Shown here piece after piece: positions 5,947-10,376 of a stretch of 64,000 nucleotides of DNA. The notes below the pieces were generated by a model that was not told the DNA's origin, ran no database searches, and saw only the letters and a program-made list of their open reading frames with translations. A program made the translations under genes and the position numbers. Origin of the DNA: Parafilimonas terrae. Its GTDB lineage: Bacteria > Bacteroidota > Bacteroidia > Chitinophagales > Chitinophagaceae. Position 1 is the first letter of the stretch, and each line of letters opens with the position of its first letter. The stretch lies in assembly GCF_900115755.1 (NCBI RefSeq), contig NZ_FOXQ01000001.1, positions 806,001 to 870,000 of the forward strand, read 5' to 3'.

Positions 5947-6228
5947 TCAGTGCAAATTAAAATCGGAAAAACCAATGCTGCATGATATGCCGCTTAGCAG
6001 CAATAATATGCCCGCACTGTTTAAAAACCCTTTGCCCCAGTCTTTTGATCCCAGCAATATAATGAAGATGCCCAGCACCAAATTTATTACGCCGCCAAAT
6101 AAGCAAACAAGTCCTAATATCAAACCAAAATTATCCCGGTAATTAACTGCACCGCAAACAATACCAATAAGCACAACAATGCCGCAATTGACGGCTGTAA
6201 TTTTATAAGCAAGTTTCCAGTTATTCAT
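5947..6228 (-). CDS. Small integral membrane protein
   Basis: 93 residues when started at the ATG at 6228, four bases after the radical SAM stop; the longer ATG at 6264 would overlap that gene by 32 bases and adds a non-hydrophobic piece. Three hydrophobic helices are evident (about residues 8-28, 34-58 and 67-86), with a short charged loop KDWGKG. No family recognised. Tight spacing with the upstream radical SAM gene and the downstream 97-aa gene suggests a shared transcript. Confidence 0.65.
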   Translation of the reverse strand: MNNWKLAYKITAVNCGIVVLIGIVCGAVNYRDNFGLILGLVCLFGGVINLVLGIFIILLGSKDWGKGFLNSAGILLLLSGISCSIGFSDFNLH

Positions 6229-6232
6229 ATAT

Positions 6233-7645
6233 CTATAATTTATGCAGCAGCGGGCTGCGCTCATTTTGTAATTGCCTTACATACATTTCTTTTTCATCGC
6301 GGTAAAACATATTCATGGTTTCAAATGGAATAATTCGGCCATCTTTATTTACAATATGCACACAGCTTTTTTTAATAGCACGCACATCAAAATCATAGGC
6401 ATCAATAAACCGCATAATAATTATCCGGAATAAATTTTCATAGCTTAAACCGGGCGCATGAATTTGGGGCAAGCAGCAAAGCAGTTCTTTAAAATTGTTT
6501 TCCACGCGGTCAACCGAAATGCCTGTGCTGAAAATTTTAAGCATGTGTGCATGCAGTTGTTCATCCTGTTCATATACAATTGTATTGCGGCTGTTGTTTA
6601 AAAGATGCGCCGGATCAATATACCGTGTCATCGGAAAAACCTGTCCTGCAAGTTTTAATGCATAGCCCATCACCAGTGCATCGGGATTGCATGGCACCGG
6701 AATAAGATCGTTTGGCTGAAATACATTTGTTTGCTCTAAAATCTTTTGCCGCACATCTGTCATCGTTATCCTGTCTGTTGCCGCATCAAAATGTTTCAGC
6801 CTGCCTGCAATTTGTGTTGGCTGAAAGGTTACGCCTCTTACGCAGGGCTGTTTTAAAGCGAAGTCAATTATTTCTCCAATCTCATCATCATTCACGCCTT
6901 TTTGCAATGTAACCACCAATGTGGTAGAAAGATTAAATTCATTTAAATGCGCCAGCGCTTTTTTTCGCACATCCGTTAAATCTTTACCACGCAGTTGCAT
7001 CAATGCTTCCGGCTTAAAAGAATCAAACTGCAGGTAAATTTCAAAGTCGGGCATATACGAAGCAAGCTGCTTTACAAACGCTTTATCTTTTGCTATGCGG
7101 ATGCCATTAGTATTTACCATTAAGTGGCGGATAGGTTTGCTTTTTGCAATATCCAGTATCTCAAAAAAATCAGGGTGCACCGTTGGTTCGCCGCCGCTTA
7201 TTTGCACCACATCCGGCGTTCCTTCATTGGCAACAATTATATCCAGCATTTTCTCAATCTCATCAATTGTGCGGTGCCTTCCATAATGCGGCGAACTCAT
7301 TGCATAACAAGTGGGACAGGTAAGGTTGCAGCGGTCTGTAATTTCTATAATCGTTAAGCAACTGTGCTGTTCATGATCTACGCATAACCCGCAGTCGTAC
7401 GGACAACCATACAAAGTTTTTGTATTAAACTGCAAAGGCATTTCACTGGGCTTATTATAATTGCGGATGTTCTTATAATATTCAACATCGGTTGCAATTA
7501 ATACTTTTTGAAAACCATGCTCCGGGCAATTTTTCAGCATGAAAACATTATTGCCTTCAAACACAATTTTTGCATCAATTCTTTTTAAACAAACAGGGCA
7601 AAGGCTTATGGTGAAATCGTAATACGTATAGGCGCGCTCAGGCAT
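6233..7645 (-). CDS. Radical SAM protein resembling tetraether lipid synthase (Tes/MJ0619-type)
   Basis: 470 residues from the ATG at 7645; a longer frame to 7780 adds sequence from an upstream repeat and is rejected. The cysteine pattern is distinctive: C16-P-V-C19 with C40-P-E-H (rubredoxin-like site), C81/C85/C88/C96 (auxiliary cluster), then C106-x3-C110-x2-C113 (radical SAM cluster), and the SAM-binding ISGGEPT. This order matches archaeal Tes, which joins isoprenoid chains by C-C coupling to make membrane-spanning lipids; bacterial homologues exist with mostly unknown substrates. An Lgt-fold membrane enzyme is encoded just upstream (172 bases), supporting a lipid substrate. It could instead be a distant radical SAM enzyme with another role. 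Confidence 0.8.
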   Translation of the reverse strand: MPERAYTYYDFTISLCPVCLKRIDAKIVFEGNNVFMLKNCPEHGFQKVLIATDVEYYKNIRNYNKPSEMPLQFNTKTLYGCPYDCGLCVDHEQHSCLTIIEITDRCNLTCPTCYAMSSPHYGRHRTIDEIEKMLDIIVANEGTPDVVQISGGEPTVHPDFFEILDIAKSKPIRHLMVNTNGIRIAKDKAFVKQLASYMPDFEIYLQFDSFKPEALMQLRGKDLTDVRKKALAHLNEFNLSTTLVVTLQKGVNDDEIGEIIDFALKQPCVRGVTFQPTQIAGRLKHFDAATDRITMTDVRQKILEQTNVFQPNDLIPVPCNPDALVMGYALKLAGQVFPMTRYIDPAHLLNNSRNTIVYEQDEQLHAHMLKIFSTGISVDRVENNFKELLCCLPQIHAPGLSYENLFRIIIMRFIDAYDFDVRAIKKSCVHIVNKDGRIIPFETMNMFYRDEKEMYVRQLQNERSPLLHKL

Positions 7646-7730
7646 AAAAAATGTATGTATTATAAAGATAGATGTTCTGTTATTGTTTTTGAAAAGAAGC
7701 CGTATTGTAAAAACAAAAGGGTTATTAAAA

Positions 7731-7785
7731 ATTGTCTGAGCGGAGCCGAAGACAATTGCTGTTGAGCGAAGTCGAAACAATATTT
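7731..7785 (+). repeat. Short dispersed inverted repeat unit upstream of the radical SAM gene
   Basis: Contains TGTCTGAGCGGAGCCGAAGA followed by TTGAGCGAAGTCGAAACA: two direct, diverged copies of a GAGCGnAGnCGAAnACA word. Words like this are scattered through many Bacteroidota genomes between genes. It separates the radical SAM gene from the Lgt-like gene and is probably not coding. Confidence 0.45.
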
Positions 7786-7816
7786 TTAATAATGTGCCTG
7801 AAAAAAAGACGACTGT

Positions 7817-8524
7817 TTAATACTGCAATAATTGTTTCGGATGAATAATATATCTGTAATAATACATCAAGCCAGGCAGCGCAGTTATTTGTATGGTGGA
7901 AAGGCCAATGCTGAAGGTATAATGCGGCTTTATAAAATCAAGTATAAAGCGGAAGAAACAATAGGCGATCATAAATAGCTTAAACCGTGCCCCGTTTTGC
8001 AGTGTGTATTTTTTTTCAATTTTAATAAGCGCCATCCATAGTAATATCAAAAAAATAATTTCATACAAAGCCACAGGATGCCTGTAATAACTATCGCCCA
8101 AATGCATACCCCACGGCAGGTTTGTTGGCAACCCGTATGTTTCTTCATAAATACCCATGCTAAAACAACCAAGGCGCCCAACAATCAAAGCCAGTATGAT
8201 GGGATAGGTAAATAAATCACCGGAAGCTGTTTCTTCATGGATTATTTTTTTTACTAACTCCACGCCAATAAGGCCGCCCAATAAACCGCCCAGGATTGTT
8301 TTGTTTGAATAGAAATAAAACAAAATATTTTCGGACTGCACTAATCCTGCAGGATTTTCCAAACCACCAATTAACCTGCTGCCAATAAAAGCACCCAGGG
8401 TTGCGCCAATTATGATGGATAAGCGGTTAGGTGGTGCAATTATATCTCCTCGTTTTCTTTTTAAAAACAAGTAGTAACGAAAGCCAACAAATAAACCTGC
8501 AAATTCAGTAATGGTATGCAGCAA
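7817..8524 (-). CDS. Lgt-fold membrane protein (diverged prolipoprotein diacylglyceryl transferase family)
   Basis: 235 residues with about six to seven hydrophobic helices. Lgt landmarks are recognisable: GRLGCF (Lgt has GRxGNF), YRHPVALYE (Lgt RHPSQLYE) and YCFFRFILDF (Lgt region with Arg239). Two catalytically important E. coli Lgt residues are changed: the His of HGG is Leu here (LGG near residue 78), and the Asn of GRxGN is Cys120. This is therefore unlikely to be the housekeeping Lgt and may act on another lipid substrate. It lies upstream of the Tes-like radical SAM gene on the same strand. Lgt normally moves diacylglyceryl from phosphatidylglycerol to lipoprotein cysteines. Confidence 0.75.
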   Translation of the reverse strand: MLHTITEFAGLFVGFRYYLFLKRKRGDIIAPPNRLSIIIGATLGAFIGSRLIGGLENPAGLVQSENILFYFYSNKTILGGLLGGLIGVELVKKIIHEETASGDLFTYPIILALIVGRLGCFSMGIYEETYGLPTNLPWGMHLGDSYYRHPVALYEIIFLILLWMALIKIEKKYTLQNGARFKLFMIAYCFFRFILDFIKPHYTFSIGLSTIQITALPGLMYYYRYIIHPKQLLQY

Positions 8525-9821: not shown

Positions 9822-10310
9822 TTAAGATGCGCTTTCTGTGCCTGTATCTTCAGGCGTTGGCACTTCAGGCGCTGGCTGAACATCGGTAGTTGTTAGTGGT
9901 AATTCAGGTTGTTGAGGTTCCGCAGCTTTAGGTGCAGCTTTTTTGGGCGCTGCTTTCTTAGCAGCTTTTTTGGGAGCCGCTTTTTTAGCAGCCTTCTTTG
10001 GTGCTGCTTTTTTCACAGCCTTTTTAGGAGCAGCTTTCTTAACGGCCTTTTTGGGCGCCGCTTTTTTTACAGCTTTCTTTGGCGCTGCTTTCTTAGCAGC
10101 TTTTTTAGGAGCCGCTTTCTTAGCAGCCTTCTTTGGTGCTGCTTTTTTCACAGCCTTTTTAGGAGCAGCTTTCTTAACGGCCTTTTTGGGCGCTGCTTTT
10201 TTTACAGCTTTCTTTGGCGCTGCTTTCTTAGCAGCTTTTTTAGGAGCCGCTTTCTTAGCAGCCTTTTTTGGTGCTGCTTTCTTTACAGCTTTTTTATTTG
10301 CTTTTGCCAT
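9822..10310 (-). CDS. Histone H1-like Lys/Ala-rich repeat protein
   Basis: 162 residues from the ATG at 10310. Residues ~6-130 are tandem 9-residue units of the type KKA(A/V)KKAAP, strongly basic, followed by a ~35-residue acidic, Pro/Thr-rich tail ending GTESAS. Such proteins resemble the C-terminal tail of eukaryotic histone H1 and AlgP/Hc1-type bacterial proteins, and bind DNA non-specifically. The A/V choice follows a five-unit pattern (A A V V V), which matches a 135-bp duplication in the DNA. A perfect 9-bp inverted repeat lies upstream and a terminator downstream, so it is a one-gene unit. Long antisense open frames here are artefacts of the repeat. Confidence 0.9.
   Translation of the reverse strand: MAKANKKAVKKAAPKKAAKKAAPKKAAKKAAPKKAVKKAAPKKAVKKAAPKKAVKKAAPKKAAKKAAPKKAAKKAAPKKAVKKAAPKKAVKKAAPKKAVKKAAPKKAAKKAAPKKAAKKAAPKKAAPKAAEPQQPELPLTTTDVQPAPEVPTPEDTGTESAS
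9956..10300 (-). repeat. 135-bp direct repeats inside the histone-like gene
   Basis: The word TCTTAGCAGC recurs at 9956, 10091 and 10226, exactly 135 bp apart, and the sequence between is nearly identical (a few silent differences). This gives two full copies and a partial third, each encoding five 9-residue units. It is a likely site of length variation by slippage or recombination. Confidence 0.9.
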
Positions 10311-10333
10311 GATGTGAATTTTTCTTTTATAGA

Positions 10334-10376
10334 AATGGATTGTAAGGTAAAAATGTTTTACAAATATCAATCCATT
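10334..10376. promoter_or_regulatory. Inverted repeat upstream of the histone-like gene
   Basis: AATGGATTG at 10334-10342 and its perfect complement CAATCCATT at 10368-10376 are separated by 25 bp, 24-66 bp before the start codon. It may be a paired regulator site or a leader hairpin; no known operator is recognised. Confidence 0.4.

Follow-up and report, generated by a model that had tools for sequence, protein, structure and literature searches.

What might a radical S-adenosylmethionine (rSAM) protein built like the archaeal tetraether synthase (Tes) be doing next to a relative of the prolipoprotein diacylglyceryl transferase (Lgt) in a bacterium of the family Chitinophagaceae? The two genes lie in a stretch of 64,000 nucleotides of the Parafilimonas terrae genome (RefSeq assembly GCF_900115755.1, contig NZ_FOXQ01000001.1, positions 806,001 to 870,000 of the forward strand), hereafter the window, and both open reading frames (ORFs) were found on its minus strand, as an earlier note on this DNA had described them (Table 1). 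That note proposed a two-enzyme module, and the pair is indeed genuine, but a third gene had been missed, which encodes a small membrane protein with a cysteine in its C-terminal tail. The existence of the module is well supported. As for its chemistry, the reading that we favour, with a rough probability of 0.45, is that of a three-part modification module, in which the Lgt-like protein would lipidate the tail cysteine and the Tes-like protein would use radical chemistry to form a bond on this lipid or on the lipopeptide.

Table 1. Features of the locus, with positions counted from the first nucleotide of the window
Feature	Position	Strand	Remarks
Lgt-like membrane protein, 249 aa	7817..8566	-	CTG 8566 start by homology, alternatively TTG 8524
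Tes-superfamily rSAM protein, 470 aa	6233..7645	-	ATG start; ORF list begins at upstream TTG 7780
Small membrane protein, 93 aa, ~3 transmembrane helices, predicted dedicated substrate	5947..6228	-	equivalents in other loci
Conserved tail Cys codon (Cys83 of 93, ...LLLLSGISC-SIGFSDFNLH)	5980..5982	-	two tail alignments

The linkage between the genes of both enzymes was followed in the order, in the phylum and in a wider set of loci. Among 149 genomes of the order, 11 contain an rSAM match at E<=1e-20, and in all 11, one of them cut by a contig end, the Lgt-like gene is adjacent; the Lgt-like protein was detected at E<=1e-10 in 14 genomes, which are those 11, one with a close copy but no rSAM gene (G034) and two with weak matches. 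At a cut of 1e-40, the co-occurrence of the two families in these genomes gives a Fisher p of 9e-16. In a sample of the phylum, 34 out of 395 genomes have an rSAM match and 30 of the 34 have an Lgt-like neighbour, for two of which the wider stretches L059 and L060 were needed to see it clearly; the other four comprise two genomes with an unlinked copy (G179, G406) and two Tes-type loci (L064, L065). A wider set of 108 loci was made of 28 loci, the window included, plus 80 from named genomes (the best 80 of 584 confirmed), and the Lgt-like gene maps to the same strand and within 4.5 kb of the rSAM gene in 98 of them, so that the co-occurrence suggested by the earlier note stands. For the ten unlinked loci, a strong copy is present elsewhere in five genomes (E 6e-94 to 6e-85) and a weaker one in two (5e-56 and 2e-50), whereas none was found genome-wide for L112, L119 and L110, all of them metagenome bins. 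Three loci (L053, L057 and L111) have flanks long enough on both sides and no neighbour, yet an unlinked close copy of the Lgt-like gene.

Neighbouring pairs occur in ten bacterial phyla (Bacteroidota, Cyanobacteriota, Bacillota, Pseudomonadota, Chloroflexota, Actinomycetota, Acidobacteriota, Elusimicrobiota, Planctomycetota and Myxococcota), several of them represented by bins only. On the other hand, no Lgt-like gene lies beside the Tes-type proteins in any of 14 loci (L064, L065 and L192-L203, twelve of which have flanks of 1.5 kb or less), nor was one found in three genomes of archaeal relatives outside the module clade (G565, G567, G550). Inside the clade, myxococcal relatives (L205, L206, L207, L209 and L211) have no Lgt-like gene next to the rSAM gene either; matches to the Lgt family (E 9e-70 to 9e-18) do occur in these genomes, part of them possibly ordinary Lgt. 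In the genome G694 the Lgt-like gene is about 3 kb off on the opposite strand, and the 'Lgt' label of L204 in the tree rests on an opposite-strand gene. Two further observations concern this distribution. Two archaeal bins, L146 (Thalassarchaeaceae) and L076 (Woesearchaeota), show Lgt-like genes near the rSAM gene, where mis-binning is possible; Lgt is described as absent from archaea in the consulted part of PMC13251419. In the Myxococcota sample, locus L239 (G675:C568:1-15000) has three clustered rSAM genes of the Tes superfamily and no Lgt-like neighbour.

The rSAM protein shares with Tes both its fold and its plan of metal sites. Its cysteines are at positions 16, 19, 40, 81, 85, 88, 96, 106, 110 and 113, plus 268, 319, 390, 391 and 428, and the layout noticed earlier does match that of the Methanocaldococcus jannaschii enzyme: C16xxC19-x20-C40xxH43 aligns with the rubredoxin ligands, C81xxxC85xxC88xxH91 with those of the [Fe4S4]N cluster, and C106xxxC110xxC113 with those of the radical-SAM cluster, so that all 11 ligand columns examined are conserved. 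These assignments follow the part of PMC9433317 that describes them, where the [Fe4S4]N histidine is unnumbered and was taken as His83 from the alignment. Searches of the PDB gave M. jannaschii Tes as by far the best match (phmmer E 4e-69; profile E 5e-97). Likewise, the AlphaFold2 model of the protein (mean confidence, pLDDT, of 84.7, and poor across much of residues 354-399, the region holding Cys390 and Cys391, which might join Cys319 and Cys428 in a cluster) superposes on the Tes structure 7TOM with a Z score of 45.1 and a root-mean-square deviation of 2.4 over 402 residues at 35% identity, the next structural family being MoaA with a Z score of 19.4.

In spite of this likeness, the protein is not Tes. 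Its best NCBIfam match, nearly full length, is the radical SAM (seleno)protein TrsS (NF045646; 337.1 bits, cut-off 490), followed by Tes itself (NF045702; 297.3 bits, cut-off 450), a cut-off that is passed in 30 of 60 Thermoplasmatota genomes with 530-691 bits. In a tree of 88 rows, the 14 Tes rows form one clade (support 100/98), and the window protein falls outside it, among module proteins of many phyla, with Chitinophagaceae (Niabella, Chitinophaga) as its nearest named relatives. It thus belongs to a sister family of Tes. A search of 140 genomes of the phylum of G541 gave no TrsS that reaches the cut-off, hence no TrsS row is in the tree and the relationship to TrsS is given by score only. 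At the C-terminal positions of Tes, Tyr459 is replaced by Ile, Cys455 by Ser and Cys470 by Glu, while Cys456 and Met439 are kept, the latter throughout the clade of the window protein. The new family has marks of its own, as Cys319 is invariant and Cys390/391 are present in at least 90% of 57 module-type rows. Tyr459 and Met439 are given as invariant among 1000 archaeal Tes homologues in the consulted sections of PMC9433317, where the Y459F and Y459L variants remain active, so that the Tyr459 change is no proof of a different chemistry. The candidate identity as true Tes was rejected on the score below the cut-off, the position outside the Tes clade and the differences at two C-terminal cysteines and Tyr459. 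Two side observations arose from these searches. Tes-type proteins are present in two genomes of the window's own phylum (L064 and L065; G209 and G434), one over the cut-off with 493.8 bits and one just under it with 441.9; and the module of L086, a contig binned as Limnohabitans, groups with Flavobacterium (100/100), being probably mis-binned or transferred.

The Lgt-like protein matches the Pfam family PF01790 with 74.8 bits (cut-off 24.9) and falls under the cut-off of the Lgt equivalog TIGR00544 (43.9 against 118.9 bits). Its AlphaFold2 model (pLDDT 94.7) has the Lgt fold, with a Z score of 13.9 to the Lgt structure 5AZB over 241 residues and of 6.2 to the next entry. In an alignment of 30 rows (Escherichia coli Lgt, the two further Lgt proteins of the host, L040 and L041, 26 Lgt-like proteins linked to rSAM genes and the orphan L062), R143, R239 and E202 are present in all 30, Y235 in all 27 Lgt-like rows, and E243 is either E or D, with D in the window protein. 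At H103, on the other hand, all 27 Lgt-like rows have a hydrophobic residue or Thr (Leu in the window protein, instead of the His, Tyr, Trp or Phe expected of Lgt), whereas at Y26 the clade of the window protein has His and a deeper clade has Tyr. The position of N146 is a cysteine in 28 of 30 rows, including L040 and L041, and N146C is also described in distant Lgt proteins in the consulted part of PMC13251419; therefore it does not mark a loss of Lgt function. In the relevant part of PMC4728403, R143 and R239 are located at the phospholipid donor, and a role in binding the acceptor is proposed for H103. The Leu and Cys substitutions pointed out earlier are thus real, as the residue alignment confirms, but a simple degeneration of the protein is not apparent, given the intact donor-site residues. 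We read the protein as a probable enzyme that retains the donor site of Lgt and differs at the acceptor site. Two candidate interpretations were discarded along the way: the Asn to Cys change as a diagnostic feature, as it is common to L040 and L041, and a plainly dead Lgt copy, as the donor-site residues are intact. The orphan L062 (G034:C10:163757-164416) is an intact Lgt-like gene whose rSAM partner was not found in the genome at E<=1e-20.

The third component is encoded by genes for small transmembrane (TM) proteins, which sit after the rSAM gene, between both enzymes or beside the Lgt-like gene. Alignments between these proteins are poor, but their last TM helix ends approximately in [LIV]-G-x-[GSA]-x-C, followed by 3-22 residues. 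Because this pattern was written after the data had been seen, the identical pattern was used for the controls: near the pair, it occurs on the sense strand in 82/108 loci and on the antisense strand in 1/108, compared with 4/1040 outside windows, and 29 loci have more than one ORF with it. Without any selection for cysteine, a small ORF with at least two TM helices directly follows the rSAM gene in 79 of the 108 loci, and the C-terminal 20 residues include a cysteine in 70 of these 79, compared with 82 of 201 background ORFs; the nine exceptions are five ICMT-type methyltransferase-like proteins, one Lgt-like gene itself, two alphaproteobacterial proteins and one other. The conserved cysteine is single, with no second conserved ligand in the alignments of the small proteins, and cysteines elsewhere in them are rare (0.7% in 112 Cys-selected ORFs, a few of them doubtful). 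In the same ORFs, Lys and Arg are more numerous before the last TM helix than after the cysteine in 95 cases, fewer in 4 and equal in 13; by the positive-inside rule, the C-terminus is therefore predicted outside, and the last helix of the small protein probably ends there. The active site of Lgt, following the consulted part of PMC4728403, faces outside, which is the same face as that predicted for the tail cysteine.

The small genes seem to be under constraint, as dN/dS for 11 pairs was 0.05-0.26 in eight, 0.69 in one (Paenibacillus) and saturated in two, so that 8 of the 9 computable pairs show purifying selection. A tail profile made from Bacteroidota gave, in nine genomes, 11 matches with E<1e-3, all in the module and in 7 Bacteroidota genomes, all 7 of which had contributed rows to it; the window tail is the best match in its host genome (E 3.8e-9, with a profile that includes it). 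At this threshold the profile missed even the own tails of the cyanobacterial and Paenibacillus genomes, hence the absence of further substrates is shown for Bacteroidota only. The N-terminal parts of the proteins are variable, with an EF hand in L146 and, in L150, three tandem copies that by eye begin like a zinc ribbon. Searches of 70 small proteins with Pfam and NCBIfam (summaries without cut-offs) gave no family with more than 5 matches (DUF4064, best E 7.7e-5), and an EF-hand match in just one of the 70. As far as sequence profiles tell, no curated family is a clear fit for the small proteins. Separately, the last residue of many Bacteroidota tails is a His (NLH, GMH, NFH, SVH), for instance those of the window, L086, L107, L111 and L120.

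Plasmids offer a view of the module from outside these samples. Nine records of a plasmid collection gave rSAM matches, and an adjacent Lgt-like gene is present on 4 of the 8 examined (Persicobacter, Mycobacterium branderi, M. avium and Nonomuraea). The annotated mycobacterial plasmids, which took no part in the definition of the tail motif, show the order Lgt-like gene, two hypothetical proteins and rSAM gene (the hypothetical proteins of M. avium being known from the annotation), and the two M. branderi proteins encoded in between have SGGLCTGLNPADYAG and TVGVCTGLNPAMYTGA as their C-terminal sequences. In the Persicobacter plasmid, the small ORF after the rSAM gene ends in FVIGTGICGSLLS. The other four plasmids, from M. 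vanbaalenii and three haloarchaea, carry a methyltransferase as the next gene instead, and no Lgt-like gene was detected by profile in two of them or in the annotation of any of the four; their rSAM proteins (two searched) have TrsS as best match, below the cut-off. In the three haloarchaeal plasmids (L283, L286 and L287), the rSAM and methyltransferase genes lie divergently to a gene of the DUF547 family and one for a peroxiredoxin/redoxin, which is a second arrangement of the Tes-like rSAM superfamily.

From these components, a pathway can be proposed that would start with the small membrane protein as a dedicated substrate, whose last helix would run from inside to outside and end in the hydrophobic [LIV]-G-x-[GSA]-x-C tail. 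The tail cysteine could be regarded as loosely lipobox-like, but C-terminal instead of N-terminal as in a classic lipoprotein. At the outer face, the Lgt-like enzyme would move a diacylglyceryl-type group from a phospholipid to this cysteine. The Tes-like protein would accommodate alkyl chains in a hydrophobic tunnel, next to SAM and to a C-terminal Fe-S cluster, and would introduce a C-C or C-S bond into the same lipid, or into the lipopeptide. The final product would be a C-terminally lipid-anchored, or 'inverted', small lipoprotein with a radical-modified lipid. This reading is suggested by the fact that the parts are usually together and by the small proteins, which frequently occur in tandem and vary except for one fixed cysteine, together with the predicted orientation, the donor residues kept next to a changed acceptor site, and the sulfur-bearing lipid intermediate that Tes forms, which is described in part of PMC9433317. 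In a deeper clade (L059-L061 and L073-L076), the locus also includes an ICMT-type methyltransferase gene (by Pfam for L061, by eye for the others), with a DUF4395-type protein in L059-L061. Since ICMT-class methyltransferases cap lipidated C-terminal cysteines in eukaryotes, this gene counts in favour of a lipidated cysteine.

Several points weigh against this proposal. We infer the chemistry of every step, that is, the modification of the cysteine, the lipid donor, the topology, the order of the steps and the bond made by the rSAM protein. An rSAM enzyme should be cytosolic, whereas the tail cysteine is predicted outside. Three residues of Lgt, H103, Y26 and N146, are changed in the Lgt-like protein, and they are essential in E. 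coli Lgt in the consulted part of PMC13251419, where low activity is presumed for a second M. smegmatis homologue with Y26H and N146C. The [Fe4S4]N ligands are absent, in the alignment, from the module protein L063, as from the Tes-type L065, and, by eye, from the M. branderi protein. As for the tails, their alignments were built from proteins chosen for the cysteine and their pattern is post hoc; the window tail (SGISC) and those of 25 other loci fail the strict form of it. Variants are visible in several of these, but none was seen in L047, L053, L080, L089 and L140, nor in L071, L077, L112, L114 and L148, which lie near contig ends. Moreover, the alphaproteobacterial proteins have their cysteine at the end of the first TM helix and not of the last, and the ICMT-type gene does not adjoin the module of the window.

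An alternative that we consider improbable, close to that of the earlier note, keeps the lipid and leaves the small protein as an accessory or anchor: the enzymes would act on free lipids of the membrane, whose fatty tails would be joined to give long diacids or membrane-spanning lipids. The fold and the metal plan of Tes, Met439 included, are as expected for it, as is the Lgt-type donor site of the neighbour, and bacterial Tes homologues have been proposed for the synthesis of branched glycerol dialkyl glycerol tetraethers in the relevant part of PMC8941075. Against these stand the separate clade of the rSAM protein and the 14 Tes-type loci, twelve of them with flanks of 1.5 kb or less, at which no Lgt-like gene was found, and such a role would leave unexplained why the small proteins retain their cysteine, come frequently in tandem copies and otherwise vary. 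A lipid study of soil strains of Flavobacterium and Pedobacter, in the portion of PMC10025309 consulted, is mainly concerned with hydroxy fatty acids and makes no mention of a lipid of this type.

A ribosomally synthesized and post-translationally modified peptide (RiPP)-like system seems similarly unlikely to us. Here, the rSAM protein would cross-link the tail cysteine of a precursor, through a thioether or another bond, and the Lgt-like protein would lipidate or export the product as a short lipopeptide signal or antimicrobial. Small, variable and often tandem proteins with a single conserved cysteine adjoining an rSAM gene would fit this idea, and peptide maturases such as SuiB and SkfB rank among the structures next closest to the rSAM model, but with Z scores of 18-19 against 45 for Tes, and no SPASM domain was matched by Pfam in the protein. 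There is a precedent in the DAG-RiPPs, made through the lipoprotein pathway in Bacteroidota (PMC12636315, in the part consulted), whereas the predicted substrate in the module is a multi-TM protein and not a leader plus core. Finally, a non-catalytic Lgt-like scaffold for small membrane subunits, whose cysteine would be a metal, haem or disulfide ligand, is very unlikely, since, despite the substituted H103, Y26 and N146 and a cysteine at the end of a hydrophobic helix, a scaffold would not need the R143, R239, E202 and Y235 that are kept in all the Lgt-like rows, and the single conserved cysteine has no second ligand.

The proposed lipidation module can be compared with several known systems. 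Tes itself (also GDGT-MAS; MJ0619, PDB 7TOL/7TOM) shares with the rSAM protein the fold, the rubredoxin site, [Fe4S4]N, the radical SAM cluster and the Met439 position; the rSAM protein differs in the cysteine and tyrosine positions already given and in its linkage to Lgt-like and small-protein genes. The Lgt-like protein has the fold and four key residues of Lgt, but a C-terminal cysteine as its predicted acceptor. The lipidated MNIO peptides, or DAG-RiPPs, described in part of PMC12636315 come close in having a small ribosomal substrate, an Lgt-type lipid on a cysteine and an extra metalloenzyme; they use an N-terminal lipobox, the general lipoprotein pathway and an MNIO enzyme, unlike the module, with its separate Lgt paralogue, Tes-like rSAM protein and C-terminal cysteine in a multi-TM protein. 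The name of the NCBIfam entry NF058595, 'lipo-invert putative C-terminal anchoring domain', suggests that its curators hold the idea of an inverted lipoprotein-like anchor. It was matched at E<=0.1 by just 2 of the 70 small proteins (best E 0.051; scores of 12-13 bits seen in two proteins, against a cut-off of 37) and not by that of the window, and no protein passed the cut-off in the host genome or in 198 genomes of the window's phylum, which gave 3 weak matches. The plasmid pairs of haloarchaea and M. vanbaalenii share the rSAM superfamily and have a methyltransferase in place of the Lgt-like protein. Modifying enzymes with a dedicated small substrate are of a known kind, and we rate this combination as new; no publications on it were found in the open-access literature.

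The lipidation of bacterial proteins is understood chiefly as a process of N-terminal cysteines. A module with its own Lgt paralogue, a Tes-like enzyme and substrates with a C-terminal cysteine would, if true, be a new lipidation route. A bolder version, which we hold as doubtful, is that of an undescribed lipidation in at least 10 bacterial phyla, in which an Lgt paralogue would act on a C-terminal cysteine and the Tes-like enzyme would then couple the tails (tail to tail, or by C-S bonds), giving rise to tail-anchored lipoproteins tied into or across the membrane. The favoured reading would also suggest a function for many of the bacterial 'Tes homologues' proposed as makers of membrane-spanning lipids in the consulted part of PMC8941075, and so would bear on how the producers of lipid biomarkers are inferred from such genes.

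With regard to the locus itself, the stop codon of the rSAM gene and the ATG of the small protein are 4 nt apart, and the frame of the Lgt-like gene is open upstream of TTG 8524, with CTG 8566 aligning with the starts of its homologues. Promoter-like sites are no more frequent than in shuffled sequences. In the spacer between both enzymes, a search did not bear out the inverted repeat that inspection by eye had suggested at 7640-7830. The same spacer contains, at 7736-7776 on the minus strand, two near-copies of the 15-base motif TTCGRCTYCGCTCAR, which occurs nowhere else in the window with up to one mismatch; no inverted repeat was detected at this motif pair. Two genes upstream of the Lgt-like gene (9822-10370, minus strand), a lysine/alanine/proline repeat protein with KKAAPKKA units is encoded, which we take to resemble a histone-H1-type tail.

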